A stretch of DNA of 64,000 bases. Source: Streptomyces sp. NA04227 (GTDB lineage Bacteria > Actinomycetota > Actinomycetes > Streptomycetales > Streptomycetaceae). Both the position numbers and the translations under genes were made by a program. Position 1 is the stretch's first letter. The number at the start of each line of letters is the position of its first letter. Below the pieces are notes generated by a model that had not been told where the DNA came from, made no database searches, and was given only the letters and a program-made list of their open reading frames with translations. The stretch spans positions 2,283,001 through 2,347,000 of the forward strand of contig NZ_CP054918.1 in the NCBI RefSeq assembly GCF_013364195.1, in the 5' to 3' direction. Shown here piece after piece: positions 19,590 through 37,539 of the stretch.

Positions 19590-19625
19590 CTACGCGCGTA
19601 GGCCAGGACCAGCTACCCTCTTCGC
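19590..19625 (+). promoter_or_regulatory. CTACGCGCGTAG operator and leaderless promoter of punA
   Basis: A perfect 12-bp palindrome CTACGCGCGTAG occupies 19590-19601. TACCCT at 19614-19619 is a -10 element 6 nt before the GTG start. The same palindrome occurs before deoC and add. Confidence 0.65.
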
Positions 19626-20450
19626 GTGAACGCATCTCTCCTTCCGGACGACATCCCGGGCGACCCGCACGCCGCTGCCGACACCGCCGCCGCCAGACTG
19701 CGCGAGCTCACCGGCACGGACACCCATGACGTCGCCCTCGTGATGGGCTCCGGCTGGGGTCCCGCGGTGGAAGCACTCGGCGTCCCCGAGCACGACTTCC
19801 CGGTCACCGAGCTGTCCGGCTTCCCGCCGCCGGCGGTGGCGGGCCACGGCGGACTGATCCGCTCGTACCGGGTCGGCGAGAAGCGGGCACTGGTCTTCCT
19901 CGGCCGTACCCACTACTACGAGGGCCACGGCGTCGCGGCCGTCGCGCACGGGGTGCGCACCGCCGTCGCCGCGGGCTGCAAGACGATCATCCTGACCAAC
20001 GGCTGCGGCGGACTGCGCGAGGGCATGCGCCCCGGCCAGCCGGTCCTGATCAGCGACCACCTGAACCTCACCGCCACCTCCCCGATCGTCGGCGCCCACT
20101 TCGTCGATCTGACCGACCTGTACTCGCCGCGGCTGCGCGCCCTGTGCAAGGAGGTCGACCCCACGCTGGAGGAGGGCGTCTACGCGCAGTTCCCCGGCCC
20201 GCACTACGAGACCCCGGCCGAGGTGCGCATGGCCCGGGTGCTCGGCGCGGACCTGGTCGGCATGTCGACCGTCCTGGAGGCCATCGCGGCCCGTGAGGCG
20301 GGCGCCGAGGTGCTCGGTATCTCCCTGGTCACCAACCTCGCGGCGGGCATGACGGGCGAGCCCCTCAACCACGAGGAGGTCCTCCAGGCGGGCCGCGATT
20401 CGGCCACCCGGATGGGCAGCCTGCTGGCCCAGCTCCTGGGCCGGATCTAA
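19626..20450 (+). CDS. punA: Purine nucleoside phosphorylase (trimeric family)
   Basis: 274 aa. Motifs of the family 2 trimeric enzyme are intact: phosphate loop [49 protein letters not shown], purine-site [13 protein letters not shown] and TNLAAG with the base-binding Asn. It phosphorolyses (deoxy)inosine and (deoxy)guanosine to base plus (deoxy)ribose 1-phosphate. The next gene is a sugar-phosphate mutase able in principle to convert the product to the 5-phosphate. The GTG start sits 6 nt after the -10 element with no Shine-Dalgarno, so translation is probably leaderless. The upstream palindrome predicts control with deoC and add. Confidence 0.92.
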
Positions 20451-20566
20451 TCTGCGACCACCCCGGTCCGGGCGCCCCGCGCCCGGAATCGACGGCAACA
20501 CCCACGGACTACCCCGTGGCGCCCTGCCCCCGCGGGCGCGCGCCGGGGCGGGAGGCGGAAGACCAC

Positions 20567-22216
20567 GTGCAGGACGAACTGCTGGCCCGGGCCCGGACCT
20601 GGCTCGCCGAGGACCCCGACCCCCAGACGCGCACCGAACTGGCCGCACTGATCGAGCGCGCCGCCGACGGTGACACCGACGAACTCGCCGAACGCTTCGC
20701 CGGAACCCTCCAGTTCGGCACCGCCGGGCTGCGCGGCGAACTCGGCGCGGGCCCGATGCGGATGAACCGCGCCGTGGTGATCCGCGCCGCCGCCGGGCTC
20801 GCCGCCTATCTGCGCGCCCGGGGCGAGGGCGACGGCCTGGTCGTCATCGGCTACGACGCCCGCTTCAAGTCCGCCGACTTCGCACGGGACACCGCCGCCG
20901 TGATGACCGGCGCCGGACTGCGCGCGGCCCTGCTGCCGCGCCCGCTGCCGACCCCCGTACTCGCCTTCGCCATACGGCACTTGGGCGCGGTGGCCGGAGT
21001 CGAGGTGACCGCGAGCCACAACCCGCCGCGCGACAACGGCTACAAGGTCTACCTCGGCGAGGGTTCCCAGATCGTGCCCCCCGCCGACGCGGGCATCGCC
21101 GCCGAGATCGCGGCGGTCGCCTCGCTGGCGGACGTACCACGCCCAGAGTCCGGCTGGGAGGTGCTCGGCGAGGAGGTCCTGGACGCCTATCTGGCCCGTA
21201 CCGACGCCGTGCTCGCCGAGGGTTCGCCGCGCACCGTCCGTATCGTGCACACCGCGCTGCACGGCGTCGGCACCGAGACCCTGCGCGCCGCCTTCGCCCG
21301 CGCGGGCTTCCCGGCCCCGGTGCCGGTACCCGAACAGGCCGAGCCCGACCCCGAGTTCCCCACCGTCGCCTTCCCCAACCCGGAGGAGCCCGGCGCGATG
21401 GACCTCGCCTTCGCCACCGCCCGGCAGGCGGCGCCGGACCTGATCATCGCCAACGACCCGGACGCGGACCGCTGCGCCGTAGCGGTGCCCGACCGGGCGG
21501 CCGAGGGCGGCTGGCGGATGCTGCGCGGCGACGAGGTGGGCGCGCTCCTCGCCGCACACCTCGTGCGGCGCGGGGTGAGCGGCACCTTCGCCGAGTCGAT
21601 CGTCTCCTCCTCCCTGCTCGGCCGGATCGCCGAGAAGGCGGGCCTGCGCCACGAGGAGACCCTCACCGGCTTCAAGTGGATCGCCCGGGTGGACGGCCTG
21701 CGCTACGGGTACGAGGAGGCGCTCGGCTACTGCGTCGACCCCGAGGGCGTACGCGACAAGGACGGCATCACCGCCGCCCTGCTCGTCGCCGAACTGGCCT
21801 CCGAACTCAGGGAACAGGGGCGGCAGTTGACCGACCTGCTCGACGAACTCGCCGTCGAGCACGGCCTGCACGCCACCGACCAGCTCTCGGTCCGCGTCAA
21901 GGACCTCTCCCTGATCGCCGACGCCATGCGCCGCCTGCGCGAACACCCCCCGACCCAGCTCGCGGGCCTCGCCGTGACGCGCACGGAGGACCTGACCGAG
22001 GGCACCGAGACCCTGCCGCCCACGGACGGCCTGCGCTACACCCTGGAGGGCGCGCGGGTGATCGTACGGCCGAGCGGTACCGAGCCGAAGATCAAGTGCT
22101 ATCTGGAGGTTGTGCTGCCGGTGGACTCGCCCACGGACCTCGGCGTAGTCCGGCACCGGGCGACACAGCTGCTCAACGCGCTCAAGACGGATCTGGCGGA
22201 GGCCGCGGGGATCTGA
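20567..22216 (+). CDS. Phospho-sugar mutase (phosphohexo/phosphopentomutase)
   Basis: 549 aa, alpha-D-phosphohexomutase superfamily with four domains. The phosphoserine loop is TASHNPPRDNGYK, the Mg site NDPDADRCAV, the sugar loop GDEVGALL with FKWIARVDG, and the phosphate-binding tail RPSGTEPKIKCYLE. It is 116 bp downstream of punA on the same strand, and homologues (for example PmmB of mycobacteria) keep this pairing. That suggests a phosphopentomutase role, ribose 1-phosphate to ribose 5-phosphate, feeding DeoC, although phosphoglucose or phosphomannose activity cannot be excluded. The GTG at 20567 was chosen because homology starts at QDELLARARTWLAED and GGAGG lies upstream. Confidence 0.88.
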   Translation: MQDELLARARTWLAEDPDPQTRTELAALIERAADGDTDELAERFAGTLQFGTAGLRGELGAGPMRMNRAVVIRAAAGLAAYLRARGEGDGLVVIGYDARFKSADFARDTAAVMTGAGLRAALLPRPLPTPVLAFAIRHLGAVAGVEVTASHNPPRDNGYKVYLGEGSQIVPPADAGIAAEIAAVASLADVPRPESGWEVLGEEVLDAYLARTDAVLAEGSPRTVRIVHTALHGVGTETLRAAFARAGFPAPVPVPEQAEPDPEFPTVAFPNPEEPGAMDLAFATARQAAPDLIIANDPDADRCAVAVPDRAAEGGWRMLRGDEVGALLAAHLVRRGVSGTFAESIVSSSLLGRIAEKAGLRHEETLTGFKWIARVDGLRYGYEEALGYCVDPEGVRDKDGITAALLVAELASELREQGRQLTDLLDELAVEHGLHATDQLSVRVKDLSLIADAMRRLREHPPTQLAGLAVTRTEDLTEGTETLPPTDGLRYTLEGARVIVRPSGTEPKIKCYLEVVLPVDSPTDLGVVRHRATQLLNALKTDLAEAAGI

Positions 22217-22245
22217 GGGGCGTGGCGAGGAGGCCCCAACAGCCC

Positions 22246-22704
22246 TCAGACGACGCAGAATTCGTTGCCCTCGGGGTCCTGCAGAACGACGGCGTAGTAC
22301 TCCATGTCCGGCTCGTCCATGATCCGCAGCACGGTGGCACCGGCTGCGGTCAGCCGTTCCACCTTGGCCGCGACCCGTTGCGTACGGACCGCCGGCGGGA
22401 CCCCGCGACCGCCACCGACCTTGAGGTCGAGGTGCACCCGGTTCTTGGCCACCTTCGGCTCCGGAACCTGCTGGAACCACACCCGCGGCCCCCGTCCCTC
22501 CGGATCGACGATCGACTCCGGCGTCTCCCCGGCGCCGGGGGGCAACTCGGCCTCGGGCACGCCCATTTCCGCCCAGTAGGCGCGCCATGTGGCGTGCCCG
22601 CCCGGCGGAGGCTCGGGCACGTACCCGAGGGCCTCGGCCCAGAAGGTCACCAGCTTGCGCGGGTCGGCGCAGTCGATGGTCAGTTGCAGCGTTGTCGTCT
22701 CCAT
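22246..22704 (-). CDS. VOC-family (glyoxalase/bleomycin-resistance fold) protein
   Basis: 152 aa from the ATG at 22704. Two beta-alpha-beta-beta-beta halves are visible: TLQLTIDCADPRKLVTFWAEALGY and NRVHLDLKV... to AVVLQDPEGNEFCVV. It belongs to the Glyoxalase_6-like group common in actinobacteria. No substrate can be named. It is convergent with the mutase gene, only 29 bp away. Confidence 0.82.
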   Translation of the reverse strand: METTTLQLTIDCADPRKLVTFWAEALGYVPEPPPGGHATWRAYWAEMGVPEAELPPGAGETPESIVDPEGRGPRVWFQQVPEPKVAKNRVHLDLKVGGGRGVPPAVRTQRVAAKVERLTAAGATVLRIMDEPDMEYYAVVLQDPEGNEFCVV

Positions 22705-22792
22705 GCCCGGAGCATCGCAGGCGGGTACGACAAGGGGCCGGGTCCGCTCCACAGCAGCCCTGAAGTGGCCCCGAACAGGCTCCGAACAGGCC

Positions 22793-23752
22793 CTAGTCCA
22801 GCGCCCCCTGCAACTTGCTCCCGTCCGCGGCGACCAGGCTGCAGGTCACCGTCCTCATCCCGAGCCGATAGCCGCTCAGCTTCGGATACTGGGCCAGCGT
22901 CCGGAAGCGCTCCCCCGCGGGCTGCTTGCGGGCCTTGCGTTCCAGCTCGGGCTTGCACATCGCGTCGGCCTTGGTCTTCAGGGCGTCCTCGGTGGTGAAG
23001 CCCTCGCCGAGCTTCTCCTGGTACACGACCTGGGCGTCGTGGGAGCCGGGGCAGGGGACCTTGTCGCCGTAACCCTGTTTGGTTTCCGAGAGGTTGAAGC
23101 AGTCGCCCGCCCTGAGCTGGTACGCAAGGCGAGGACCGGAACTGGGGGTGGGCATGATCGACTCGAAGTCCGAGGGGGCGTCCGAGGGCGACGCGTCCGC
23201 GCCGTCGTCGTAGCCGGGGTCCGGGTCGTCGTAGTCGCCGGAGCCGTCCTCGGGCGAGGCGCTTTCGCTGTTGCTGTCGCTCGGCGAGGGTGACGCGCTC
23301 GTGGCCGTCGAGGCGCTCGGGGAGCCCGCCGCCTCGTCCTTCTCGTCGTCCCCGTCGCCACCGAACAGCAGCACGCTGCCCACGACCAGCGCGACCACCG
23401 CCACCGCGGCGGCCACCGATATGAGGAGCGTCTTGCGGTTGCCGCCGCCTCCACCACCGGGCGGCGGGGGCGGCCAGCCGCCTGGGACCGGCGGGCCGGG
23501 CGGACCACCGGGCGGACCGAACCCTCCGCCGGGCGGACCGGCGGGCGGACCACCGGGAGCGCCGTACCCGCCCGGCGGCTGCCCGGACGAGCCGTACGGG
23601 TTCTCGGGCGACGAGCCGTACGGGTTGCCGGGCACAGGGCCGTACGAATTACCGGGCTGCGCCGGAGGAACGTATCCACTCGGCGGGCCGAACCCCCCGG
23701 CGCCGGAAGGGTGGTTGGGCGGCTGCCGCCCCGGAGGCGGCGGGAAAGTCAT
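22793..23752 (-). CDS. Proline-rich single-span protein with septum-formation domain
   Basis: 319 aa. Residues 1-105 are Pro/Gly/Tyr-rich and cytoplasmic, with repeated NPYGSS/PPGG units. One membrane helix follows (TLLISVAAAVAVVALVVGSVLLF). A Ser/Asp-rich extracellular linker leads to a C-terminal domain with RAGDCFNLSE, VPCPGSHDAQVVYQE and two later cysteines (AMCKPEL, VTCSLV). That Cys pattern fits the Septum_form family, whose members bind at or affect the division septum in actinobacteria. The exact role is unknown. Two cysteine pairs probably form disulfides outside the membrane. Confidence 0.7.
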   Translation of the reverse strand: MTFPPPPGRQPPNHPSGAGGFGPPSGYVPPAQPGNSYGPVPGNPYGSSPENPYGSSGQPPGGYGAPGGPPAGPPGGGFGPPGGPPGPPVPGGWPPPPPGGGGGGNRKTLLISVAAAVAVVALVVGSVLLFGGDGDDEKDEAAGSPSASTATSASPSPSDSNSESASPEDGSGDYDDPDPGYDDGADASPSDAPSDFESIMPTPSSGPRLAYQLRAGDCFNLSETKQGYGDKVPCPGSHDAQVVYQEKLGEGFTTEDALKTKADAMCKPELERKARKQPAGERFRTLAQYPKLSGYRLGMRTVTCSLVAADGSKLQGALD

Positions 23753-23882
23753 GCCTACAGCTTGTCATGTGCAGAATGCAGGCGGTAACCGGCCCCTCGG
23801 AGTGTCGGGCACCGCTTCGGCGACCAACAGCCGCCTCCCGCAAGGGAGTTCCGGTACGGGAGCGGCGGTACGGGAGTGGCGG

Positions 23883-24527
23883 TCAGCCCGCGATCAGCAG
23901 GATGGCGAGCAGCGCCGCGCCCGCCGCGGAGGGCCCGAGGATCTCGTACGCCCAGCGCACCTCGACCTCGCCCTGGGCGCCCGGCTTCTTCTCGTTGGTC
24001 TCCTGGAGCTCGCGCAGTTCGTCCATCGCGCGGTCGGAGGTGGCACGGTGATCCTCGGCCGGGACGCTGTCCTGTGCGGACTTGCCGGACTCGGCGCGCG
24101 CCTGGCGCGAGGCGGCGCGCTTGCGGCCGCGCAGGGACACCGGCAGGGCCCAGAGCTGGTACTTGGTGCCGGACTCGGCGAAGACCTCGTTGGAGTACCC
24201 GGCGCGCAGATTCACCACCTGCGACCAGGGCAGCGTGATCAGCCGGAAGGGGTTGCGGACCCGCATCCGGTCGTCATTGGCGAAGATCGCGGGCCGGAGG
24301 GTGAAGGCGCACACCAGGGGCACCAGGAACAGCGCGGAGGCGAGCGCCAGCCACGGGACCCGGCCGTCACCGCGTACCAGCGCGTCGATCCCGAGCCAGG
24401 CGACGAGCGCGAGCAGCAGCACCCCGCCCACGATGCCGCCGGGCGAGCGGTAGACACGGTCCTTGTACTCTGCGGCCCCATCGGGGTTGTCGCCGGGTGC
24501 GGGGGCCTTGGGGTCCGGGCTCGTCAT
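23883..24527 (-). CDS. Membrane protein with bacterial PH domain
   Basis: 214 aa. Two membrane helices (GGIVGGVLLLALVAWLGIDAL and WLALASALFLVPLVCAF) precede a PH-like beta domain (RPAIFANDDRMRVRNPFRLITLPWSQVVNLRAGYS). After it comes a charged helical region and a last hydrophobic helix at the C-terminus (AAGAALLAILLIAG). This bPH_6-type architecture is frequent in Streptomyces next to septum-formation-domain genes. CACAAT is 7 nt upstream of the ATG, so the mRNA may be leaderless. Role unknown, probably envelope-associated. Confidence 0.72.
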   Translation of the reverse strand: MTSPDPKAPAPGDNPDGAAEYKDRVYRSPGGIVGGVLLLALVAWLGIDALVRGDGRVPWLALASALFLVPLVCAFTLRPAIFANDDRMRVRNPFRLITLPWSQVVNLRAGYSNEVFAESGTKYQLWALPVSLRGRKRAASRQARAESGKSAQDSVPAEDHRATSDRAMDELRELQETNEKKPGAQGEVEVRWAYEILGPSAAGAALLAILLIAG

Positions 24528-24729
24528 GGTCCCGATTGTGCCTGAAGGTGTTCACCATCCGGACGCGGGTGACCGGGCGCATCTCGGAAGGTGTCCGCTC
24601 CGTGACCTTCGCGGACCGGGGCCCGCGCCCTCCGAAGGGGACCGTGTGCGGCGGCCGCGGGCCCGCACTCACCGGCCAACCCCCCGATTACCGGCCGAGT
24701 TCTCCCGCCCGACCCGCCCTGTACAGCCG

Positions 24730-24754
24730 CTACGCGCGTAGATATGCTCCCCTC
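24730..24754 (+). promoter_or_regulatory. CTACGCGCGTAG operator and leaderless promoter of deoC
   Basis: The palindrome CTACGCGCGTAG occupies 24730-24741 and a -10 element TATGCT 24743-24748, 6 nt before the GTG at 24755. The palindrome almost touches the -10, so a bound protein would block polymerase. Confidence 0.68.
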
Positions 24755-25729
24755 GTGACTATGGCGACCACTCCACCCTCTTCAGCCGCGGGGCGGGCCG
24801 CGTTTGCCGACGTGGCTGCGTCCGAGGCCACGCTGCGCCGCTTCCTGCACGGGCTCCCGGGCGTCGACCCGGTCGGGCTCGAAGCGCGCGCCGCGGCGCT
24901 GGGCACCCGCTCGATCAAGACCACGGCGAAGGCGTATGCCCTGGACCTGGCGATCTCGATGATCGACCTCACCACGCTCGAAGGGGCGGACACCCCGGGC
25001 AAGGTCCGCTCCCTCGGCACCAAGGCGGCCCACCCGGACCCGACGGACCCCACGACACCGAGGGTCGCGGCCGTCTGCGTCTATCCCGACATGGTCCCCG
25101 CCGCCAAGCGGTCCGTCGCGGGCACCGGCGTCAAGGTGGCCTCGGTCGCCACCGCGTTCCCCGCGGGCCGGGCCGCCCTGGAGGTCAAGCTCGCCGACGT
25201 ACGCGCGGCGGTGGCCGCGGGCGCGGACGAGATCGACATGGTCATCGACCGGGGCGCGTTCCTCGCGGGCCGCTACCTCAAGGTGTACGAGGAGATCACC
25301 GCCGTGAAGGCGGCGTGCGGCACCGCCCGGCTGAAGGTCATCTTCGAGACCGGCGAGCTCGCCACCTTCGACAACATCCGCCGCGCGAGCTGGCTCGGCA
25401 TGATCGCGGGCGCCGACTTCATCAAGACCTCCACCGGCAAGGTCGCGGTCAACGCCACCCCGGCGAACACCCTGCTCATGCTCCAGGCGGTACGCGACTT
25501 CCGCGCGCAGACCGGCGTACAGATCGGCGTGAAACCGGCGGGCGGCATCCGCACCGCCAAGGACGCGGTGAAGTTCCTGGTCCTGGTCAACGAGACCGCG
25601 GGCCAGGACTGGCTGGACAACCACTGGTTCCGCTTCGGCGCCTCCTCGCTCCTGAACGACCTGCTGATGCAGCGCCAGAAGCTGAGCACGGGACGCTACT
25701 CCGGACCCGACTACGTGACGGTGGACTGA
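24755..25729 (+). CDS. deoC: Deoxyribose-phosphate aldolase
   Basis: 324 aa from the GTG at 24755 (an ATG two codons later is possible). It is a class I aldolase TIM barrel: the Schiff-base Lys is in ADFIKTSTGK and the second essential Lys in GVKPAGGIR; EIDMVIDRGAFLAGRY is the conserved central strand. It splits 2-deoxyribose 5-phosphate into glyceraldehyde 3-phosphate and acetaldehyde. The next gene, 5 bp downstream, is an aldehyde dehydrogenase that could remove the acetaldehyde. About 40 extra N-terminal residues compared with short bacterial DeoC are typical of actinobacteria. Confidence 0.93.
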   Translation: MTMATTPPSSAAGRAAFADVAASEATLRRFLHGLPGVDPVGLEARAAALGTRSIKTTAKAYALDLAISMIDLTTLEGADTPGKVRSLGTKAAHPDPTDPTTPRVAAVCVYPDMVPAAKRSVAGTGVKVASVATAFPAGRAALEVKLADVRAAVAAGADEIDMVIDRGAFLAGRYLKVYEEITAVKAACGTARLKVIFETGELATFDNIRRASWLGMIAGADFIKTSTGKVAVNATPANTLLMLQAVRDFRAQTGVQIGVKPAGGIRTAKDAVKFLVLVNETAGQDWLDNHWFRFGASSLLNDLLMQRQKLSTGRYSGPDYVTVD

Positions 25730-25734
25730 GAGAC

Positions 25735-27213
25735 GTGAACACAGACGTGACCAACTCCCCAACGGGCTCCCCGCTTTCGAGTTCCCCGTTCGCGTACGCG
25801 CCCGCGCCCGAGTCCCACGAGATCGTCGACATCGCGCCCTCCTACGGGCTCTTCATCGACGGCGAGTTCACCGAGGCCGCCGACGGCCGGGTGTTCAAGA
25901 CGGTCTCGCCCGCGAGCGAGGAGGTCCTCTCCGAGGTCTGCCTGGCCGGTGAGGCCGACGTGGACCGCGCGGTACGGGCCGCCCGCAAGGCCTTCGTCTC
26001 CTGGTCGGCGCTGCCCGGCGCGGAGCGGGCCAAGTACCTGTTCCGTATCGCGCGGATCGTCCAGGAGCGCGCCCGCGAACTGGCCGTCCTGGAGAGCCTG
26101 GACAACGGCAAGCCCATCAAGGAGACCCGCGACACCGACCTGCCGCTGGTCGCCGCGCACTTCTTCTACTACGCGGGCTGGGCGGACAAGCTCGGCCACG
26201 CCGGGTTCGGAAGCGATCCGCGGCCGCTGGGCGTCGCGGGCCAGGTCATCCCCTGGAACTTCCCGCTGCTGATGCTCGCCTGGAAGATCGCCCCGGCGCT
26301 GGCCACCGGCAACACGGTGGTCCTCAAACCGGCCGAGACGACCCCGCTGTCCGCGCTGTTCTTCGCGGACATCTGCCGTCAGGCGGGCCTGCCCCGCGGT
26401 GTGGTCAACATCCTCACCGGGTACGGCGAGACGGGCGCGGCGCTGGTCGCGCACGAGGGCGTGGACAAGGTGGCGTTCACCGGTTCCACCGCCGTCGGCA
26501 AGCAGATCGCGCGGACCGTCGCGGGCACCGGCAAGAAGCTCACCCTCGAACTCGGCGGCAAGGGCGCCAACATCGTCTTCGACGACGCCCCGCTGGACCA
26601 GGCCGTCGAGGGCATCGTGAACGGCATCTTCTTCAACCAGGGCCAGGTGTGCTGCGCGGGCAGCCGCCTGCTCGTCCAGGAGTCGATCGAGGAGGAGTTC
26701 CTCGACGCGCTCAAGGCACGGCTCGCGACACTGCGCCTGGGCGACCCGCTCGACAAGAACACCGACATCGGCGCCATCAACTCCGCCGAGCAGCTCGCCA
26801 GGATCACCGCACTGGCCGAACAGGGCGAGGCCGAGGGCGCCGAGCGCTGGTCGCCGCCGTGCGAACTGCCCTCCTCCGGCTACTGGTTCGCGCCGACCCT
26901 GTTCACCGGGGTCTCCCAGGCGCACACGGTGGCCCGGGACGAGATCTTCGGCCCGGTCCTGTCCGTACTGACCTTCCGTACCCCCGAGGAGGCCGTGGCC
27001 AAGGCCAACAACACTCCGTACGGGCTCTCGGCGGGCATCTGGACCGAGAAGGGCTCGCGCATCCTCGCGGTCGCGGACCGCCTGCGCGCGGGTGTGGTCT
27101 GGGCGAACACGTTCAACAAGTTCGATCCCACCTCGCCGTTCGGCGGGTACAAGGAGTCGGGCTTCGGCCGCGAGGGCGGCCGCCACGGTCTGGAGGCGTA
27201 CCTCGATGTCTGA
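25735..27213 (+). CDS. Aldehyde dehydrogenase (NAD(P)+)
   Basis: 492 aa, full-length ALDH superfamily. The NAD-binding segment is VIPWNFPLLMLAWKIAPALATGN with KPAETTPLSA; the general-base Glu is in LTLELGGKGAN and the nucleophile in FFNQGQVCCAGSR (Cys about 306). EIFGPVLSV and PFGGYKESGFGREGG complete the fold. Its position 5 bp after deoC suggests it oxidises the acetaldehyde released by DeoC to acetate. The GTG at 25735 is the first start after the deoC stop. It overlaps the next gene by 8 bp, so the two are translationally coupled. Confidence 0.9.
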   Translation: MNTDVTNSPTGSPLSSSPFAYAPAPESHEIVDIAPSYGLFIDGEFTEAADGRVFKTVSPASEEVLSEVCLAGEADVDRAVRAARKAFVSWSALPGAERAKYLFRIARIVQERARELAVLESLDNGKPIKETRDTDLPLVAAHFFYYAGWADKLGHAGFGSDPRPLGVAGQVIPWNFPLLMLAWKIAPALATGNTVVLKPAETTPLSALFFADICRQAGLPRGVVNILTGYGETGAALVAHEGVDKVAFTGSTAVGKQIARTVAGTGKKLTLELGGKGANIVFDDAPLDQAVEGIVNGIFFNQGQVCCAGSRLLVQESIEEEFLDALKARLATLRLGDPLDKNTDIGAINSAEQLARITALAEQGEAEGAERWSPPCELPSSGYWFAPTLFTGVSQAHTVARDEIFGPVLSVLTFRTPEEAVAKANNTPYGLSAGIWTEKGSRILAVADRLRAGVVWANTFNKFDPTSPFGGYKESGFGREGGRHGLEAYLDV

Positions 27214-28989: not shown

Positions 28990-29814
28990 GTGAGTTCCCA
29001 TCCCCCCATACCTACGCGCGTCGTGCTGCTCTGCGGCCCCTCCGGCTCCGGAAAGTCCTCGCTGGCCACCCGCTCAGGACTGCCGGTGCTCGCCCTCGAC
29101 GACTTCTACAAGGAGGGCGACGATCCCACCCTCCCGCGGCTGACCGGCACCGACGCCGCGGACTGGGACTCCCCCGCCTCCTGGGACGAGGAGAGTGCCG
29201 TCGCCGCGATCCTGGCCCTGTGCCGCACCGGACGTACCCAGGTGCCGGTCTACGACCTCGCGAGCAGCAGCCGTACGGGCAACAGGGCGCTGGACATCGG
29301 CCGTACGCCACTGTTCGTCGCGGAGGGGATCTTCGCCGCGGAAATCGTGGAACGCTGCCGCGAACTCGGCGTCCTCGCCGACGCGCTGTGCCTGCGCGGC
29401 CGCCCCACCACCACCTTCCGCCGCCGGCTGCTGCGCGACCTGCGCGAGGGCCGCAAGTCGACCCTGCTCCTGCTGCGCCGCGGCTGGCGCCTGATGCGCA
29501 CCGAACGCGCCATCGTCGCCCGGCAGACGGCACTCGGCGCCCACCCCTGCGCCCGCGACGAGGCCCTCGGCCGCCTCGCCGCCGCGGCGGCGGGCCACTG
29601 CGCGGGCGGCCGCGCCCGCAATGCCCGCACCGGCGAGGCGCCGCGCATCCCGGCACAGGCCGACGTCGAGAACGCCTCCGCCAGGGCCGCCGACTCCGTC
29701 GAGGCTCCCGGTACGGCGAGCACGGCCAGTGCAGCGAGTACGGCGGGCACGGCCGGTACGGCCAGTGCCGCCGAAGCCACGCACGCCACCGGCGCACCGC
29801 ACTCCGCCAACTGA
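28990..29814 (+). CDS. Uridine kinase-like P-loop kinase
   Basis: 274 aa from the GTG at 28990. The Walker A motif is LLCGPSGSGKSSL, followed by the substrate segment LALDDFYKEGDDP with the catalytic Asp and VPVYDLASSSRTG. The EGIFAAEIV strand is in the usual uridine kinase place. It probably phosphorylates uridine or cytidine in pyrimidine salvage, in keeping with the nucleoside genes around it. From about residue 220 the tail is low-complexity Ala/Thr/Ser (STASAASTAGTAGTASAAEA) encoded by short imperfect DNA repeats and unlikely to be part of the fold. Confidence 0.78.
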   Translation: MSSHPPIPTRVVLLCGPSGSGKSSLATRSGLPVLALDDFYKEGDDPTLPRLTGTDAADWDSPASWDEESAVAAILALCRTGRTQVPVYDLASSSRTGNRALDIGRTPLFVAEGIFAAEIVERCRELGVLADALCLRGRPTTTFRRRLLRDLREGRKSTLLLLRRGWRLMRTERAIVARQTALGAHPCARDEALGRLAAAAAGHCAGGRARNARTGEAPRIPAQADVENASARAADSVEAPGTASTASAASTAGTAGTASAAEATHATGAPHSAN

Positions 29815-29874: not shown

Positions 29875-29994
29875 AGGACCAGCAGCCCGGCCGCGACGCG
29901 GATAACCGGTCAAACTGGCCCATACTCCCGGAAAGCAACATCCGGAGAGTCCGGAAAAAGCAACAAGACCGGAAAGGCCCCCCAGCCCTCCGGT

Positions 29995-30245: not shown

Positions 30246-30256
30246 TCGAAGTGGGC

Positions 30257-31081
30257 TCAGGCAACGAGCTCTTCGAAGGACTCCTCCTCGTCACGGCCGA
30301 AGCTGAGCACCTCGTCCTCGCGCAGCCTGCGCAGCGAACGCCAGATGCTGGACTTGACCGTGCCGACACTGATGTCGAGGATGTCCGCGATCTCCGGGTC
30401 GGTACGGCCCTCGTAGTAACGCAGGACCAGCATCGTCCGCTGGAGTTCGGGCAGCCGGGCGAGCGCCTGCCACAGGACGGCGCGCAGTTCGGTGCCGCGC
30501 ATCGCGTCCGTGTCGCCGGCGGTCTCCGGCAGTTCCTCGGTCGGGTACTCGTTCAGCTTGCGCCTGCGCCAGGCGCTGATGTGCAGGTTGGTCATGGTGC
30601 GGCGCAGGTATCCGCCGACGGCGGCCTTGTCGCTGATCCGGTCCCAGGCCTTGTAGGTCGAGAACAGCGCGCTCTGCAGCAGGTCCTCGGCCTCGAAGCG
30701 GTCACCGGTCAGGTGGTACGCGGTGGCGTAGAGGGAGGCGCGGCGCTCCTGGACGTAGGCCGTGAACGCCGCCTCGGCGTCCGCCCCGCCCGCGACGGTG
30801 CGCCGCTCCCCCGCGGCCTCCCCGTACGTCTGGCCCCCGCGCGTTACCCCTTCGTGTGCGTCAACCACCGTCATGTACGCGGTGTGCTGACGCCCGGTGC
30901 CGCGAGCGCACCCCCGCCCGCTCACGGCACCGGACTTCTCGGTGTTTCCAGCGGTTGTGAAGTTCGTGGAGTTCGTGGTCTTGGTGCCGGCGTTCGCAGC
31001 GGCCTTCATGGCGCTGCGCCCGACGGCGTCGTGCAGACGCGTGACAACTGCGCCAGTTGTGGTGCTGTGCAGTGTGTTCAT
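30257..31081 (-). CDS. sigQ: RNA polymerase sigma factor SigQ
   Basis: 274 aa from the ATG at 31081. The N-terminal 95 residues are Thr/Gly/Ala-rich and unlike a sigma domain. Region 2 is AAFTAYVQERRASLYATAYHLTGDRFEAEDLLQSALFSTYKAW and region 4 ARLPELQRTMLVLRYYEGRTDPEIADILDISVGTVKSSIWRSLRRL; that places it in the SigE-like (SACE) ECF group. It is divergent from afsQ1 as in S. coelicolor (SCO4908), where sigQ and the AfsQ1/Q2 system have opposing effects on antibiotic production. The AfsQ1 box in the spacer argues for direct control by AfsQ1. A later start is possible. Confidence 0.85.
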   Translation of the reverse strand: MNTLHSTTTGAVVTRLHDAVGRSAMKAAANAGTKTTNSTNFTTAGNTEKSGAVSGRGCARGTGRQHTAYMTVVDAHEGVTRGGQTYGEAAGERRTVAGGADAEAAFTAYVQERRASLYATAYHLTGDRFEAEDLLQSALFSTYKAWDRISDKAAVGGYLRRTMTNLHISAWRRRKLNEYPTEELPETAGDTDAMRGTELRAVLWQALARLPELQRTMLVLRYYEGRTDPEIADILDISVGTVKSSIWRSLRRLREDEVLSFGRDEEESFEELVA

Positions 31082-31168
31082 CGTGCGCCCCCCGTCGTCG
31101 GTGTCTGCCGTTCCTCGCCTTGTGACCACAACCTTGCCGACCCCACTTCATGGCGGTGTCCGCCGACT

Positions 31169-31184
31169 GTCACAGGGCTGTCAC
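31169..31184. promoter_or_regulatory. AfsQ1 binding box
   Basis: GTCAC-AGGGCT-GTCAC matches the published AfsQ1 consensus GTnAC-n6-GTnAC exactly. It sits between the divergent sigQ and afsQ1 starts. Confidence 0.75.
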
Positions 31185-31274
31185 AGGCCCCGGGGGCCCT
31201 TCCGGAGGTGTGGGTGCGGTGAGAGTGAACTCAGGAGGTCGAAAGACCGGCACCCCATGGGACAGAATGGCGCC

Positions 31275-31952
31275 GTGCCTTCCCTGTTGCTGATCGAGGA
31301 CGACGACGCCATTCGTACGGCCCTGGAGCTGTCGCTGACCCGTCAGGGTCACCGTGTGGCGACCGCTGCCACGGGCGAGGACGGTCTGAAACTGCTGCGC
31401 GAGGCGCGGCCCGATCTGATCGTCCTCGACGTCATGCTGCCCGGTATCGACGGCTTCGAGGTGTGCCGCCGCATCCGGCGCACCGACCAGCTGCCGATCA
31501 TCCTGCTCACCGCACGCAGCGACGACATCGACGTCGTGGTGGGGCTGGAGTCCGGCGCCGACGACTACGTGGTCAAACCCGTACAGGGACGGGTACTCGA
31601 CGCGCGTATCCGCGCCGTACTGCGCCGTGGCGAGCGCGAGGCCAACGACGCCGCCTCCTTCGGCAGCCTGGTCATCGACCGGGCCGCGATGACGGTCACC
31701 AAGAACGGCGAGGACCTCCAGCTCACGCCCACCGAACTGCGGCTGCTCCTCGAACTGAGCCGACGGCCCGGACAGGCGCTGTCCCGGCAGCAGTTGCTGC
31801 GGCTCGTGTGGGAGCACGACTACCTGGGCGACTCGCGGCTGGTCGACGCCTGTGTGCAGCGCCTGCGCGCCAAGGTGGAGGACGTACCGTCCTCGCCCAC
31901 CCTGATCCGCACCGTACGGGGCGTCGGCTACCGCCTGGACACCCCGTCATGA
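31275..31952 (+). CDS. afsQ1: Response regulator AfsQ1
   Basis: 225 aa from the GTG at 31275, the length of S. coelicolor AfsQ1. OmpR/PhoB type: receiver domain PSLLLIEDDDAIRTALELSL with acidic pocket, phospho-acceptor Asp52 in LIVLDVMLPG, and Lys in DDYVVKPVQ; then a winged HTH with LQLTPTELRLLLELSRRPGQALSRQQLL and RLVDACVQRLRAKVE. Phosphorylated by AfsQ2, it is known to activate antibiotic pathway genes and to respond to nitrogen source. A longer frame to 30897 is rejected because homology starts at PSLLLIED. Its TGA overlaps the ATG of a 22-codon mini-ORF. Confidence 0.95.
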   Translation: MPSLLLIEDDDAIRTALELSLTRQGHRVATAATGEDGLKLLREARPDLIVLDVMLPGIDGFEVCRRIRRTDQLPIILLTARSDDIDVVVGLESGADDYVVKPVQGRVLDARIRAVLRRGEREANDAASFGSLVIDRAAMTVTKNGEDLQLTPTELRLLLELSRRPGQALSRQQLLRLVWEHDYLGDSRLVDACVQRLRAKVEDVPSSPTLIRTVRGVGYRLDTPS

Positions 31953-32017
31953 GCGAGGCACATCCAGCGAACGGCGGGGCACACCAGGCGAGTACGGCGG
32001 GCGGCCGCCGCACGTGA
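31949..32017 (+). CDS. 22-codon linking ORF between afsQ1 and afsQ2
   Basis: ATG 31949 overlaps the afsQ1 stop (ATGA), and its TGA at 32015-32017 overlaps the afsQ2 GTG (GTGA). It encodes MSEAHPANGGAHQASTAGGR plus two residues. The double overlap could couple translation of the two genes across a 61-nt gap. It may have no product function. Confidence 0.4.
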   Translation: MSEAHPANGGAHQASTAGGRRT

Positions 32018-33774
32018 CACAGCCGCAGGACACGACGCACGACACGTCATCCGGCAGTACGCAGGACTCCCCGGCGGACGGCACCGCGGGCAAGACGGGC
32101 GGCTGGGCCGCCGCGCGCAAGGCGATACTCGCGGGCCTGCGCTTCACCAGTCTGCGGCTGCGCCTGGTCGTGGTCTTCGCCCTGGTGGCGCTCACCGCGG
32201 CGGTACTGGCCTCCGGCATCGCGTACTGGCTGAACCGGGAAGCCGTCCTCACGCGTGCCCAGGACGCCGCGCTCAACGACTTCCAGCAGGAGATGCAGAA
32301 CCACGCGAGCGCGCTGCCCACCCATCCGACCCAGTCCGAACTCCAGCGCACCGCGGGGGTGATGGCCCAGAGCAGCCAGCACTTCAGCGTGCTGCTCATC
32401 GGTACGGACGAGGACGGCAACACGGTCGTCGGCAACTCCGACCTGGACCGCTTCACGCTGGAGGACGTACCGCGGTCGCTGCGGGACGCGGTGAACCGCA
32501 AGCAGAACCTCGGCGAGCACAACTCCTCGGCGTACCACCTGTACTGGCAGCGCACCGAGGAGGGCGGTACGCCCTATCTCGTCGGCGGCGTCAAGGTGAT
32601 CGGCGGCGGTCCGACCGGCTACATGCTCAAGTCCCTCGAACCCGAGGCCGAGGACCTGGACTCGCTGGCCTGGTCGCTCGCCATCGCCACCGCGCTCGCC
32701 CTGGTCGGCGCGGCGCTGCTCGCCCAGGCCGCCGCGACCACGGTGCTCAGGCCGGTGCACCGCCTCGGCACCGCCGCCCGGCGCCTCGGTGAGGGCAAGC
32801 TCGACACCCGGCTGCGGGTCTCCGGCACCGACGAACTCGCCGAACTGTCAAGGACGTTCAACCGCACCGCGGAGGCCCTGGAGAAACGCGTCGCCGACAT
32901 GAGCGCGCGCGACGAGGCCTCGCGCCGGTTCGTGGCGGACATGTCGCACGAGCTGCGCACCCCGCTGACCGCGATCACCGCCGTCACCGAGGTCCTGGAA
33001 GAGGAACTCGACGCCGAGACCGGCAGCGTGGACCCGATGATCGAGCCCGCGGTACGGCTGGTGGTCAGCGAGACCCGGCGCCTGAACGACCTCGTCGAGA
33101 ACCTGATGGAGGTCACCCGCTTCGACGCCGGTACGGCCCGTCTCGTACGCGACGACGTCGACATCGCGGACCAGATCACCGCCTGTATCGACGCCCGCGC
33201 CTGGCTGGACGCGGTCGAACTCGACGCGGAGCGCGGGATCATGGCGCGGATCGACCCGCGCCGCCTCGACGTGATCCTGGCGAACCTGATCGGCAACGCG
33301 CTCAAGCACGGCGGCTCGCCGGTACGGGTCTCGGTGCGCACCGAGGACGACGGGGTGGACGACGTGGTCATCGAGGTGCACGATCACGGCCCCGGCATCC
33401 CCGAAGAGGTCCTGCCGCACGTCTTCGACCGTTTCTACAAGGCCAGCGCCTCCCGGCCGCGTTCCGAGGGCAGCGGCCTCGGCCTGTCCATCGCCCTGGA
33501 GAACGCGCACATCCACGGCGGCGAGATCACGGCCGCCAACTCCCCCGAGGGCGGTGCGGTGTTCACCCTGCGCCTGCCGCGCGACATTCACCCCGAGCCG
33601 GTGGCGGGCGAGGAGAACGGCAGGGACGGCGCCGGGAGTGCGGCACGTCCGGCGGGCTCCGGCGGGGCCGACGGCACGGGCGGCGCCTCCGGGAGCGGCG
33701 GTGGTCGCGGGAGCGGCGCCGCCGGGAGTGACGCCGGGGGCAAGGGCACCGAGGGCGAGGACCAGGAGAAATGA
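32014..33774 (+). CDS. afsQ2: Sensor histidine kinase AfsQ2
   Basis: 586 aa. A 45-residue polar N-terminus is followed by helix 1 (LRLVVVFALVALTAAVLASGIAYWL), an extracytoplasmic sensor of about 150 residues, helix 2 (LAWSLAIATALALVGAALLAQAA), HAMP, then DHp with His312 in MSHELRTPLTAI and the ATPase domain (N box LANLIGNALKHG, GPGIPEEVLPHVFDRFYKA, GSGLGLSIALENAHIHGGE). The last 45 residues are Gly/Ser/Asp-rich and not conserved. It phosphorylates AfsQ1. The start overlaps the mini-ORF stop, and the 3' end overlaps the lipoprotein gene by ATGA. Confidence 0.92.
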   Translation: MTQPQDTTHDTSSGSTQDSPADGTAGKTGGWAAARKAILAGLRFTSLRLRLVVVFALVALTAAVLASGIAYWLNREAVLTRAQDAALNDFQQEMQNHASALPTHPTQSELQRTAGVMAQSSQHFSVLLIGTDEDGNTVVGNSDLDRFTLEDVPRSLRDAVNRKQNLGEHNSSAYHLYWQRTEEGGTPYLVGGVKVIGGGPTGYMLKSLEPEAEDLDSLAWSLAIATALALVGAALLAQAAATTVLRPVHRLGTAARRLGEGKLDTRLRVSGTDELAELSRTFNRTAEALEKRVADMSARDEASRRFVADMSHELRTPLTAITAVTEVLEEELDAETGSVDPMIEPAVRLVVSETRRLNDLVENLMEVTRFDAGTARLVRDDVDIADQITACIDARAWLDAVELDAERGIMARIDPRRLDVILANLIGNALKHGGSPVRVSVRTEDDGVDDVVIEVHDHGPGIPEEVLPHVFDRFYKASASRPRSEGSGLGLSIALENAHIHGGEITAANSPEGGAVFTLRLPRDIHPEPVAGEENGRDGAGSAARPAGSGGADGTGGASGSGGGRGSGAAGSDAGGKGTEGEDQEK

Positions 33775-34427
33775 CCAGGCGAGTGCTGCCTCGGACGCGT
33801 GCTCTCTCGCGTGCCCGGGCCCTGACCGCGCTGCGCGCCGCCACGGGCGTCGCCGCCGCCGGTCTGCTGCTGGGTGCCTGTGGGATCCGGCCCACCGAGG
33901 TGCCGACCGACTTCGGCCCCGCGCCCTCGCGCGCGCCGTGCGCGCTGTCCGGTCCCGACGAGGAGGCCAAGGCCGCCCCGGAGGGCATCCCGGTCCAGGT
34001 CTTCCTGGTCTGCGCCACTCAGCTGGTGACCGTGGACCGTGCCGTACGGCTGCCCACCCGGCCCGAGTCCGCGGACCGGCTGCGGGTGGCGCAGGCCCTG
34101 CTCGGACAGCTCCGGCGGATGCCGTCCGAGGCGGAGCGCGAGGCCGGTTACAAGACCGAGGTCCCGCAGGAGACCCGGGTGAGCGGCCCGCGCGAGGGCG
34201 ACCCGGACAGCGCCCTGCGGCTGAGCATCCAGCCCGAGGACCTCTCCACGTACGCGCTGGCGCAGCTGGTGTGCTCGTACACCGCCTCGGCCGCCGCCGA
34301 CGAGGGCCACGGCATCGTCCTCGGCGGCCCCGATCCCGAGCCGCTGCGCCGCTACGAGTGTCCGGAGGAGCTGCGCGCCCGGCCGGGTACGCAGGTGCCG
34401 CCCGACTCGGTGGTGGAGCGGGACTGA
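33771..34427 (+). CDS. Conserved lipoprotein of the afsQ operon
   Basis: 218 aa. A basic N-terminus and hydrophobic stretch end in the lipobox LLLGACGIRP (Cys about 37), so it is lipid-anchored outside the membrane. The mature part has several cysteines (APCALSG, VCATQLV, LVCSYTAS, YECPEEL) that could pair. It overlaps afsQ2 by 4 bp (ATGA), and an orthologous lipoprotein follows afsQ2 in S. coelicolor (SCO4905), suggesting a role in signal sensing by AfsQ2. The last nine codons including the stop are duplicated directly after the gene. Confidence 0.82.
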   Translation: MTRRVLPRTRALSRARALTALRAATGVAAAGLLLGACGIRPTEVPTDFGPAPSRAPCALSGPDEEAKAAPEGIPVQVFLVCATQLVTVDRAVRLPTRPESADRLRVAQALLGQLRRMPSEAEREAGYKTEVPQETRVSGPREGDPDSALRLSIQPEDLSTYALAQLVCSYTASAAADEGHGIVLGGPDPEPLRRYECPEELRARPGTQVPPDSVVERD

Positions 34428-34454
34428 CCCGACTCCGTGGTGGAGCGGGACTGA
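34401..34454 (+). repeat. 27-bp tandem duplication at the lipoprotein gene end
   Basis: Bases 34401-34427 (last nine codons with TGA) and 34428-34454 are identical except for one base. The copy is in frame but behind the stop codon. Confidence 0.85.
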
Positions 34455-34630
34455 GGGTTGGGCCCTGGCCCCTCGGGGCTCATCCGCGCCTTTCGCCGTG
34501 CGACCCGCGTACGCCGTGGGCGCGCGACCCCGGTCGCACTCCACGGTCACCCGTCCCACCTGTTGACACACTGTCTGAGACCTGCCCCGAGCAGGGAACC
34601 GATCCAGCCCGGGCGTACGTCCTTGGGGTC

Positions 34631-35206
34631 GTGCAGCGTCAAGGCTCGGGCGACGACAGCGTCGCGGTACCACTGCGCGCGGCGGGAGTCGTCCTCCTGG
34701 CCGCGCATCTCGCGCTCGTCGCCTGGACCAGTCTGCGCCCGGTGGACGTCGCCTGGGTCAGCGCGACGAATCTGCGTCCGCTGGAAGGCATCCGCGCCGA
34801 CTTCGAGCTGGGCTGGTGGCAGGGCGCCCGCCGGGTCGTCCAGGACCTGCTGATGCTGGCGCCGCTGGGCTTCCTGCTGCCGCTCATCGGCGGACGGCTG
34901 CGCGCCTCGTGGTTCTTCTCGCTGGTGCGCTGCACGGCGGCCGGTGCCCTGGTGTCCATGTGGATCGGGCTGCTGCAGACCTACGTACCCGGGCAGGTCG
35001 TGGACATCGACTCGCTGCTGCTCAACAGCCTCGGGGTACTGCTCGCGCATCTGGCCGTGGTGCCCTGGGCCAGGTCCGCGCTGCGCAGGCGCCGCGCGGC
35101 CGGTGCGCAGGAGGTCGTTCCGGTCGCCGAGGAGGCTCAGGGTCCGACCCCGACGATTGCCGGGGTCGGGTTCGCTCCGTGGGGCGAGGCGCTGCGGCGC
35201 CCCTGA
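34631..35206 (+). CDS. VanZ-family membrane protein
   Basis: 191 aa from the GTG at 34631. Four hydrophobic helices in VanZ order: AAGVVLLAAHLALVAWTSL, VVQDLLMLAPLGFLLPLI, FFSLVRCTAAGALVSMWIGLLQ and VDIDSLLLNSLGVLLAHLAVV, with the conserved LMLAPLGFLLPL, Q-T and VDIDSLLLNSLG segments. VanZ-like proteins change cell-wall or lipid interactions with glycopeptides, but most homologues have no proven role. It is 200 bp after the afsQ operon lipoprotein. A TTGACA at 34563-34568 could start its own promoter, though no clear -10 is seen. Confidence 0.8.
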   Translation: MQRQGSGDDSVAVPLRAAGVVLLAAHLALVAWTSLRPVDVAWVSATNLRPLEGIRADFELGWWQGARRVVQDLLMLAPLGFLLPLIGGRLRASWFFSLVRCTAAGALVSMWIGLLQTYVPGQVVDIDSLLLNSLGVLLAHLAVVPWARSALRRRRAAGAQEVVPVAEEAQGPTPTIAGVGFAPWGEALRRP

Positions 35207-35271
35207 CCCGTACCGTCGAAGACAGCCGACCGAACGATCCGGTCCGGAGATCCGAGGCTCAACCGTGTGCG

Positions 35272-35314
35272 GCTCCGAGGCTTCAACCGCCTCGAAACCG
35301 AGAAGCCTCGGAGC
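35272..35314 (+). terminator. 13-bp stem terminator after the vanZ-like gene
   Basis: GCTCCGAGGCTTC and GAAGCCTCGGAGC are perfect arms around a 17-nt loop. Confidence 0.7.
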
Positions 35315-35437
35315 GTGGGCCCCGTCGACGGGCCCGCGGCAGGTCTCCGCAGAGTTGCGGCAGAGCTGCGGCAGGCGTCGACAGGCCCGCGAGACGGGAC
35401 GTCGTCCTTCCGGACCCTGGACTTTTAGGAGAGCGTC

Positions 35438-35638
35438 ATGAGTGCCCTTGTCCGCCCCAGGAACGGCCGGATGATCGGCGGCGTCTGCGCCGCCCTCGCC
35501 CAGCGCTTCGGCACCTCGACCCGCACGATGCGGCTGATCTGGGTGGTCTCCTGCCTGCTGCCCGGACCGCAGTTCCTGCTCTACCTCGCGCTGTGGATCT
35601 TCCTGCCCGACGAGTCCAAGGCCCCGGCGCCCTGGTGA
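35438..35638 (+). CDS. PspC-domain small membrane protein
   Basis: 66 aa. It starts LVRPRNGRMIGGVCAALAQRFGTSTRTMRLIW, the phage-shock-protein C signature, followed by a hydrophobic helix (FLLYLALWIFLP). PspC proteins sense or answer envelope stress. The ATG has AGGAG 6 nt upstream, preceded by a 230-bp spacer with its own promoter room, so it is probably monocistronic. Confidence 0.85.
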   Translation: MSALVRPRNGRMIGGVCAALAQRFGTSTRTMRLIWVVSCLLPGPQFLLYLALWIFLPDESKAPAPW

Positions 35639-35798
35639 TCCCGGCCTTTCGGTGATCGCGGCCTTGCGCTGATCCCGGCCCTTCGGTGAGCCCGTCCCGT
35701 ACGCGGGCGCAAGACGCCGGCGGGGCGCACGGCAGATGCCGAGCGCCCCGCCGCAGGGCCACGCGCCGAAAGCCCGTGGCCCGGACCGAAGTCAGCCG

Positions 35799-36233
35799 TC
35801 AGCCGAGCAGACCGGCGACCGGGAGGCCGCCGAGGAGCTGGCCGACCGGGCTCTGGGCGCCCATCAGCGAGTCGTCCTGCTGCTTGCCCTGCTGGCCCTG
35901 CTTGCCCTGCTGGCCCTTCTCCCCGCGCTCGGCCGCCTGCTTGCGCTCCGCCTCCTCGGCGAGGGCGCGCGTGGACTCGTAGCCGTCCTTGATCTGGTGC
36001 AGCGGAGCCGTCTCGTTCACGCCGTTCACGACGTCCTGCGGGACGCCGAGGACCTGGTTCACGCCTTCGGCCGCCGGGAGCGTCCCGGGGACCTCGGGTG
36101 CCTGGACGGCACCGGTGACGTTCCCGAGGGCGTCGGTGTCGGCCGGGGCGGCGTTGGCGGCACCCGCACCGGCGGCGGCGAAGGCGGCACCGAGCGCGGC
36201 GACACCGAGGGTCTTGACTGCAGACTGCTTCAT
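35799..36233 (-). CDS. Small secreted protein with Lys/Gln/Gly repeats
   Basis: 144 aa from the ATG at 36233. Signal peptide KQSAVKTLGVAALGAAFAAAGAGAANAA with likely cleavage before PADTDALG. The mature protein has a charged helix (ESTRALAEEAERKQAAERG) and a repeat KGQQGKQGQQGKQQ, then a hydrophobic C-terminus SPVGQLLGGLPVAGLLG. No domain is recognised. It shares its general plan and LPVxG ending with the secreted protein at 28325-28708. Probably exported by Sec and surface-associated or free. Confidence 0.7.
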   Translation of the reverse strand: MKQSAVKTLGVAALGAAFAAAGAGAANAAPADTDALGNVTGAVQAPEVPGTLPAAEGVNQVLGVPQDVVNGVNETAPLHQIKDGYESTRALAEEAERKQAAERGEKGQQGKQGQQGKQQDDSLMGAQSPVGQLLGGLPVAGLLG

Positions 36234-36377
36234 GGTGAATGCGTCCTTGTGACGGGGAACTGAGCGGTCCAAGAACGTATCGAGGTGTTTACCCGCCCGC
36301 AAACACCGAATCGCGCTCGGAAAAACGAATCACCCGCCCCGCAACAAGGACGACAATCAGCCTTGTTCTCCGGAGAG

Positions 36378-37511
36378 TTACCTGGTCACGGCGGTCTGAC
36401 GGAAGAGCCACTCCGACTTGAGTTCCGCATAGCCGGGCTTGATGACGTCATTGATCATGGCCAGCCTTTCATCGAAAGGAATGAAAGCTGATTTCATCGC
36501 ATTGACGGTGAACCACTGCATGTCGTCGAGCGTGTAGCCGAAGGTGCCGACCAGGTGCTCGAATTCGCGGCTCATGGTGGTGCCGCTCATGAGCCTGTTG
36601 TCGGTGTTGACCGTGGCCCGGAAGTGCAGCCTGCGCAGCAGCCCGATCGGGTGCGCCGCATAGGAATCGGCCGCCCCCGTCTGGAGGTTGGAGGTCGGGC
36701 ACAGCTCCAGCGGGATGCGCTTGTCGCGTACGTACGAGGCGAGCCGCCCGAGCGTGACGGTGCCGTCGTCGGCGACCTGGATGTCGTCGATGATCCGCAC
36801 CCCGTGCCCGAGCCGGTCGGCGCCGCACCACTGGAGCGCCTGCCAGATCGACGGCAGTCCGAAGGCCTCGCCCGCGTGAATGGTGAAGTGGTTGTTCTCG
36901 CGCTTGAGGTACTCGAAGGCGTCGAGGTGGCGGGTGGGCGGGTACCCGGCCTCGGCACCGGCGATGTCGAAGCCGACGACGCCCGAGTCCCGGTAACGGT
37001 TGGCCAGTTCGGCGATTTCCAGGGCGCGCGCGGCGTGCCGCATCGCGGTGAGCAGGGCGCCGACGCGGATCCGGTGACCGTTCTCGCGCGCCCGCTGCTC
37101 CCCTTCCCGGAAGCCCTCGTTGACCGCCTCGACGACCTCTTCGAGGCTGAGCCCGCGCTCCAGGTGCTGCTCGGGGGCGTAGCGCACCTCCGCGTACACC
37201 ACGCCGTCCTCGGCGAGGTCCTCGGCGCACTCGGCGGCGACCCGGCGCAGTGCGTCCTTGGTCTGCATGACGGCGCAGGTGTGGGCGAAGGTCTCCAGAT
37301 AGCGTTCCAGCGAACCGGAGTCGGCGGCCTCGCGGAACCACAGGCCGAGTTTGTCGGCGTCCGCCTCGGGCAGCCCCTCGTAGCCCGTCTCACGGGCGAG
37401 ATCCACCACGGTTCCTGGGCGCAGGCCCCCGTCGAGGTGGTCGTGCAGCAATACCTTGGGGGCTCGGCGGATCTGCTCGGCTCCCGGTCCGGAGAAAGTC
37501 TGGCTCGTCAT
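36378..37511 (-). CDS. add: Adenosine deaminase
   Basis: 377 aa. Zinc and catalytic residues are present: LLHDHLDGG (HxH), TIHAGEAFG (His and catalytic Glu), LGHGVRI and [11 protein letters not shown]. That is the true adenosine deaminase pattern, converting (deoxy)adenosine to (deoxy)inosine, the substrate of PunA. The gene matches SCO4901 by context. The ATG at 37511 lies 6 nt after TAGAGT without a Shine-Dalgarno, so it is predicted leaderless. The upstream CTACGCGCGTAG is shared with punA and deoC. Confidence 0.92.
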
Positions 37512-37539
37512 CTCGGCACTCTAACGCCTACGCGCGTAG
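37512..37539 (-). promoter_or_regulatory. CTACGCGCGTAG operator and leaderless promoter of add
   Basis: The palindrome CTACGCGCGTAG covers 37528-37539. On the minus strand it is followed by TAGAGT, a -10 element 6 nt before the ATG. Third copy of the element in the window. Confidence 0.68.

Follow-up and report, generated by a model that had tools for sequence, protein, structure and literature searches.

The 64,000-nucleotide stretch of the Streptomyces sp. NA04227 chromosome analysed here (contig NZ_CP054918.1, positions 2,283,001 to 2,347,000; hereafter the window, numbered from its first base) carries three perfect copies of the 12-mer CTACGCGCGTAG. We consider it likely that CTACGCGCGTAG serves as operator for a regulon that is conserved in the Streptomycetaceae and controlled by a repressor, a judgement that leaves the identity of the regulator aside. 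The family was assigned from the titles of genome records and from protein names, which point to Streptomyces. As predicted from sequence comparisons, nucleoside salvage, deoxynucleoside breakdown, and a gene of de novo purine synthesis would be placed under this one operator.

The palindrome and its promoters in the window

The sites and genes of the window that bear on this prediction are listed with their coordinates and strand.

19590..19601 (no strand): predicted operator CTACGCGCGTAG in the purine nucleoside phosphorylase (PNP) promoter, overlapping the expected -35 region; sequence match
19614..19619 (+): -10-like box TACCCT, 6 nt before GTG; direct reading
19626..20450 (+): PNP gene, PF01048, 274 aa; domain match
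24730..24741 (no strand): predicted operator CTACGCGCGTAG in the deoC promoter, filling the -35/-10 spacer; sequence match and family loci
24743..24748 (+): -10 box TATGCT, 6 nt before GTG, with a spacing of 6 in 50/50 family loci examined
24755..25729 (+): deoC, deoxyribose-phosphate aldolase, PF01791; GTG start, alternative ATG at 24761
37528..37539 (no strand): predicted operator CTACGCGCGTAG in the add promoter; sequence match
37518..37523 (-): -10-like box TAGAGT, 6 nt before ATG; direct reading
36378..37511 (-): add, adenosine deaminase, PF00962, 377 aa; domain match
12958..13914 (-): gene for a DeoR/GlpR-type regulator, PF08220 + PF00455, a rival candidate whose own promoter lacks the operator

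CTACGCGCGTAG is an even palindrome centred on C|G, and the bases flanking its 12-nt core vary from promoter to promoter. An earlier note on this DNA had reported three perfect copies with no fourth in 64 kb; our count was exactly three, and the domain matches back its naming of the downstream genes as PNP, deoC, and adenosine deaminase. Not one perfect copy was obtained in 100 dinucleotide shuffles of the window (0/100). With up to two mismatches allowed, the window held 6 matches compared to 4.5 expected, so the perfect copies alone stand out. In the whole genome (7,894,562 bases), CTACGCGCGTAG occurred three times, always inside the window, and the reversed-pattern control once. The earlier note had considered that the 12-mer might be common genome-wide and unlinked to nucleoside genes; instead, all three copies were located at nucleoside genes. 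A looser pattern, CTACNCGNGTAG, was detected at seven genomic places compared to five for its control, and loose matches by themselves therefore weigh little. Two of these seven places were rejected: L006, a secreted hydrolase-like gene as judged from its translation, was taken as chance, and L014 lies inside a coding-like stretch.

The three -10-like hexamers had been described as each ending 6 nt ahead of the start codon, and rereading showed this to be correct; PNP and add, read directly in the window, match the leaderless pattern of a -10 box 6-7 nt from the start with no Shine-Dalgarno sequence. The operator precedes the hexamer by 12 nt at PNP, 1 nt at deoC, and 4 nt at add, so that it occupies the -35/-10 spacer or the place where a -35 element is expected, and this overlap with promoter elements implies a repressor. 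Based on the promoter-to-start spacing, we infer that the PNP, deoC, and add mRNAs are leaderless. The proposal of a leaderless regulon thus fits the promoter type of these three genes but does not extend to every target, since the site at purS, described below, starts 69-125 nt upstream of the coding sequence.

Conservation and extent of the predicted regulon

A scan of the genus found 2-6 perfect copies in 199/199 genomes, our own included, compared to 0-3 for the reversed control. For deoC, loci were fetched by protein rather than by motif. The DeoC protein search identified deoC in 81/81 family genomes, and 50 of the 81 promoters, representing all 17 genera, were examined. Each of the 50 had the operator, which was perfect in 34, had one mismatch in 15, and had two mismatches only in genome G504; within our own genus, the site was perfect in 15/15. 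In 50/50, exactly 6 nt separated the -10 box from the first RTG (ATG or GTG), and a Shine-Dalgarno-like 4-mer was found before deoC in none of them (0/50).

The site was also present upstream of purS. A scan of named genomes gave 545 loci, of which the best 80 were used; 79 of these carry the title Streptomyces, and the other is Streptosporangium nondiastaticum. In this set, a site with at most two mismatches was detected within 250 bp upstream of purS in 80/80 loci, compared to 2/957 background windows from the same loci. Three of these sites were perfect, 75 had one mismatch, and two had two mismatches; the 79 mismatches fell mostly at pair 5/8 (61), with 10 at position 2, seven at position 4, and one at position 1. 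These counts suggest that the purS site may have been weakened systematically, although pair 5/8 varies in the deoC sites of other genera too and such variation may be tolerated. An operator at a purine-biosynthesis gene, as in a PurR-type regulon, was found at purS, the gene examined. The earlier note had spoken of a nucleoside-salvage regulon; the shared operator on nucleoside genes stands, but its presence at the purS promoter means that the regulon is not one of salvage alone.

These counts also address whether the 12-mer could be a chance or compositional repeat of a GC-rich genome. By our own estimate, base composition predicts about one perfect copy per genome, and controls gave 0-3 copies per genus genome. 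The chance explanation is refuted by the placement kept in 50/50 deoC and 80/80 purS promoters, by the constant deoC spacing, and by the shuffles, and we assign it a negligible probability.

Additional targets were found among the places in our own genome that match CTACGCGCGTAG with one mismatch (n = 24). Three of these are targets: CTACGCGGGTAG, before genes for an ATP-binding cassette (ABC) transporter ATPase (PF00005), two permeases (PF02653), and cytidine deaminase (cdd), with a Bmp/PnrA-like binding protein gene (PF02608) directly preceding the site; CTATGCGCGTAG, before the thymidine phosphorylase gene deoA; and CTACTCGCGTAG, before purS. Partners that the earlier note had predicted were thereby found near one-mismatch sites: a transporter of nucleoside type, cytidine deaminase following its genes, and thymidine phosphorylase. 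One further place lies inside the uridine kinase gene of the window (29012-29023, within the first codons); it was rejected as chance, with a site at up to two mismatches in 0/12 relatives. The transporter/cdd/deoA cluster (G000:5324905) is located 3 Mb from add (window 37528) in our genome, but in the relatives G187 and G106 only about 11-13 kb separate the transporter site from add, which indicates a large rearrangement.

Across the loci collected, 80 distinct perfect sites were available. Most of these loci were fetched by motif and some by region, and the collection is no independent test. Of the 80, 25 precede PNP, 14 add, 14 the transporter genes, seven deoC, and two purS; the remaining 18 comprise nine outside the genus, two PNP sites at a locus edge, and seven extra sites within the genus. 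One extra site precedes the gene for a secreted-looking 5'-nucleotidase (L083; PF02872, PF00149), with a matching site in L095, and another that for an extracellular nuclease-type protein (L084; PF03372, with PF00932 below the cut-off). Others precede glycosidase-like, HAD-like, and phytase-like genes and one unclear gene, as read from translations, and these may be due to chance.

Several results weigh against a regulon defined by this operator. By open reading frame reading, no target was recognised at 20 of the 24 one-mismatch places in our genome. In a scan of the class, the exact 12-mer was present in 38/296 genomes, 28 of them from our own genus, and is rare outside it (10/268). Nine of these ten non-genus genomes have one copy, and G282, from another family, has three; among the six copies read in four of the ten, none is at a regulon gene. 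In two order-neighbour families, deoC and PNP loci had no site at up to two mismatches in 5/5 cases, and by this absence the circuit seems young.

One G282 copy (L114:7001-7012) is followed after about 115 nt by a run of genes encoding PTPS, PfkB, radical-SAM, IMPDH, and phosphoribosyltransferase domains. This run is purine-related, contains none of the regulon's genes, and is perhaps a deazapurine-type cluster; its 12-mer is perhaps not due to chance. The remaining two copies in G282 lie in a transposase-like gene and in an unclear stretch. At L190 and L260, from another family of the order, the TATGCT box of deoC is preceded only by the half-site CGCGTAGA, perhaps an ancestral stage.

Candidate regulators

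It is plausible that the regulator is of LacI type rather than the DeoR/GlpR-type protein of the window. Our first choice, tentative and held at somewhat less than even confidence, is the LacI protein encoded beside glnR (SCO4158-type), which we rank ahead of the window DeoR. According to the accessible part of PMC4052901, LacI motifs are mostly even palindromes centred on C|G (1173/1303 proteins), most are 16-22 nt long, the regulator gene is autoregulated by its own site in 72% of LacI proteins, and AdeR, HpxR, and UriR are nucleoside LacI groups. CTACGCGCGTAG follows the pattern of an even palindrome with a central CG.

LacI genes were surveyed in eight genomes, our own and seven relatives, which hold 5 to 37 LacI genes. 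None of the 16 LacI loci in our genome had a copy of the 12-mer at zero or one mismatch. One of the LacI genes (L162, in the G000:408952 region) has a symmetric two-mismatch copy, CTGCGCGCGCAG, 98-236 nt before possible start codons; neither G504 nor G494 holds a close ortholog of this gene. The LacI-poorest of the seven relatives, G504, has five such genes in an assembly that is 96% complete with 5% contamination. Only L164 (86%) and L168 (84%) of our 16 have orthologs in G504, and the other 14 gave matches of at most 36% or none.

L164 (LacI-A; G000:4493405) was present in 8/8 genomes, at 70-91% in those other than our own. By our reading, the stretch upstream of L164 resembles the final part of a response regulator of GlnR type, and SCO4158 is located downstream of glnR (PMC9739823), so that L164 is probably the SCO4158 ortholog; in the accessible part of that paper, SCO4158 is guessed to control glnR and no targets are given. 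Among proteins of solved structure, CcpA, RbsR, and PurR are among the nearest relatives of L164. In G135, an L164-type LacI gene and the nucleotidase gene's perfect operator are about 4.5 kb apart (G135:C16:7389 and 11941).

Other observations count against L164 and a LacI-type regulator. The 12-nt core is shorter than the 16-22 nt typical of LacI motifs (accessible part of PMC4052901). The weakest deoC site, with two mismatches, is that of G504, the genome by which the LacI candidates were narrowed down. Promoters of the L164 group hold half an operator at the -10 box, with three mismatches in 5/8 and more than three in 3/8, our own genome's copy included. The purine-binding residues of E. 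coli PurR, R190 and T192, are by our reading not conserved in L164.

The second widely kept LacI, the L168 group, is a very improbable regulator. An L168 ortholog was seen in 7/8 genomes (not established in G008), but the promoters of this group lack the 12-mer and keep another element, GCAGAAACGT or a near match to it. GCAGAAACGT-like elements are found in the promoters of L168, L305, L309, L311, L313, L315, and L317, and may represent the group's own site.

We consider it unlikely that the 12-mer is bound by the DeoR/GlpR-type protein of the window (12958-13914), with deoxyribose-5-phosphate or a related sugar phosphate as inducer in the manner of E. coli DeoR. The protein has a sensor domain (PF00455 with PF08220), and its sole solved-structure match is a deoxyribose operon repressor (7l6l). 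One ortholog was found in each of 81/81 family genomes (73-100% identical), making it as widespread as the site, and the first 60 residues were identical across the 30 family loci read. The gene lies near PNP in five genus stretches and in four other-genus stretches holding PNP. Among 12 genomes of the order-neighbour families, the best DeoR match was at most 46% among the matches listed, and the five loci read had no operator. However, its own promoter had no site at up to two mismatches in any of 41 loci (0/41), and autoregulation through the 12-mer was rejected. Homologs from two other families, with 55-69% identity and nearly the same recognition helix, had no promoter 12-mer, and several showed GATCGG-type repeats instead (by eye). 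Matches to PNP, deoC, add, and deoA were absent from 8/8 of the stretches around these homologs, and 5/8 had an ABC ATPase match. In addition, purS fits poorly with a deoxyribose signal.

At L232-L235, from another family, GATCGG/CCGATC/GGTCA-like elements upstream of the DeoR homologs (by eye) are perhaps an operator of their own, and sugar-type ABC transporter genes adjoin the homologs in those annotated. In the window, the deoR promoter contains a block of about 60 bp (13915-13990) that is well conserved in the family, has TTACTGTCAGTTTC-GTG or a near match at its end, and looks leaderless. Between deoR and the next genes, positions 14123-17004 encode, by translation, a 2Fe-2S subunit-like protein and a large oxidoreductase-like protein; this pair is absent at that place in the two relatives read (L118, L120).

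Another DNA-binding protein, neither L164 nor the window DeoR, could instead bind the site, with a chance that we put at somewhat less than one half. Our regulator surveys covered the LacI genes of eight genomes and one DeoR across the family only, and the seven extra in-genus perfect sites showed no recognisable regulator gene. Against this, an even palindrome centred on C|G is the usual LacI site, as cited above. BldD was set aside as the binder; its half-site is similar and its spacing differs.

Proposed regulation and comparison with known systems

In the model that we propose, a dimeric repressor would bind CTACGCGCGTAG and block RNA polymerase. Its targets would be uptake, through the ABC transporter genes with cdd, and cleavage and breakdown, through PNP, add, deoA, and deoC; the purS promoter would also be controlled, through a mostly imperfect site. 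Repression would be relieved or strengthened by a purine- or nucleoside-derived signal, with weaker control at purS. If purine-replete cells strengthen the repressor, uptake and synthesis would drop in parallel, as they do under PurR. Relief by nucleosides, equally compatible with our data, would make the purS site a weak side branch.

A broader reading, possible and in our view doubtful, is that the SCO4158-type LacI protein is the Streptomycetaceae counterpart of PurR. Its graded operators would set purine synthesis together with nucleoside uptake and breakdown and, in some species, a secreted nucleotidase or nuclease, with leaderless transcripts for the strongest targets.

In the open-licence literature searched, we found no paper describing this regulon, and it is not described in the accessible parts of PMC12292694, PMC6627660, PMC3224704, PMC4848846, PMC9739823, or PMC5839063. 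As a text string, the 12-mer occurs in a DNA-structure review and a GapR paper, as judged by title. Purine pools lead to guanosine triphosphate (GTP), (p)ppGpp, and cyclic di-GMP, with a bearing on Streptomyces development and antibiotic production (PMC6627660, accessible part). An operator found across the family that connects nucleoside salvage with a gene of purine synthesis would provide a defined handle on the link between purines and development. The short list of candidate regulators includes a widely conserved LacI protein whose targets were not found described in the literature searched.

Similar regulation is known from other bacteria, including E. coli and Bacillus subtilis. Like E. 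coli PurR, a LacI-family protein, the proposed regulator would act on a palindromic operator set at purine synthesis and other purine-related genes, and L164 is about 29% identical to it. Unlike in that system, the operator sequence is a different one, the perfect sites belong to genes for the breakdown and uptake of nucleosides, and the purine-binding residues are not kept in L164. The target set resembles that of E. coli DeoR and CytR, where deoC, deoA, PNP, and transport are under shared repressors; here, the operator differs, the genes are scattered, the promoters are of leaderless type, and purS is included. B. subtilis PurR, controlled by phosphoribosyl pyrophosphate (PRPP) and (p)ppGpp, likewise joins purine synthesis with nucleoside transport (PMC8789054, accessible part), whereas its operator, the PurBox, and its protein family are unrelated. 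Among Streptomyces LacI regulators, ScnR1 and GvmR also have a palindrome with a central CG, and ScnR1 is highly conserved; its motif, RTSATACGHATRAY, differs from CTACGCGCGTAG (PMC12292694, accessible part).

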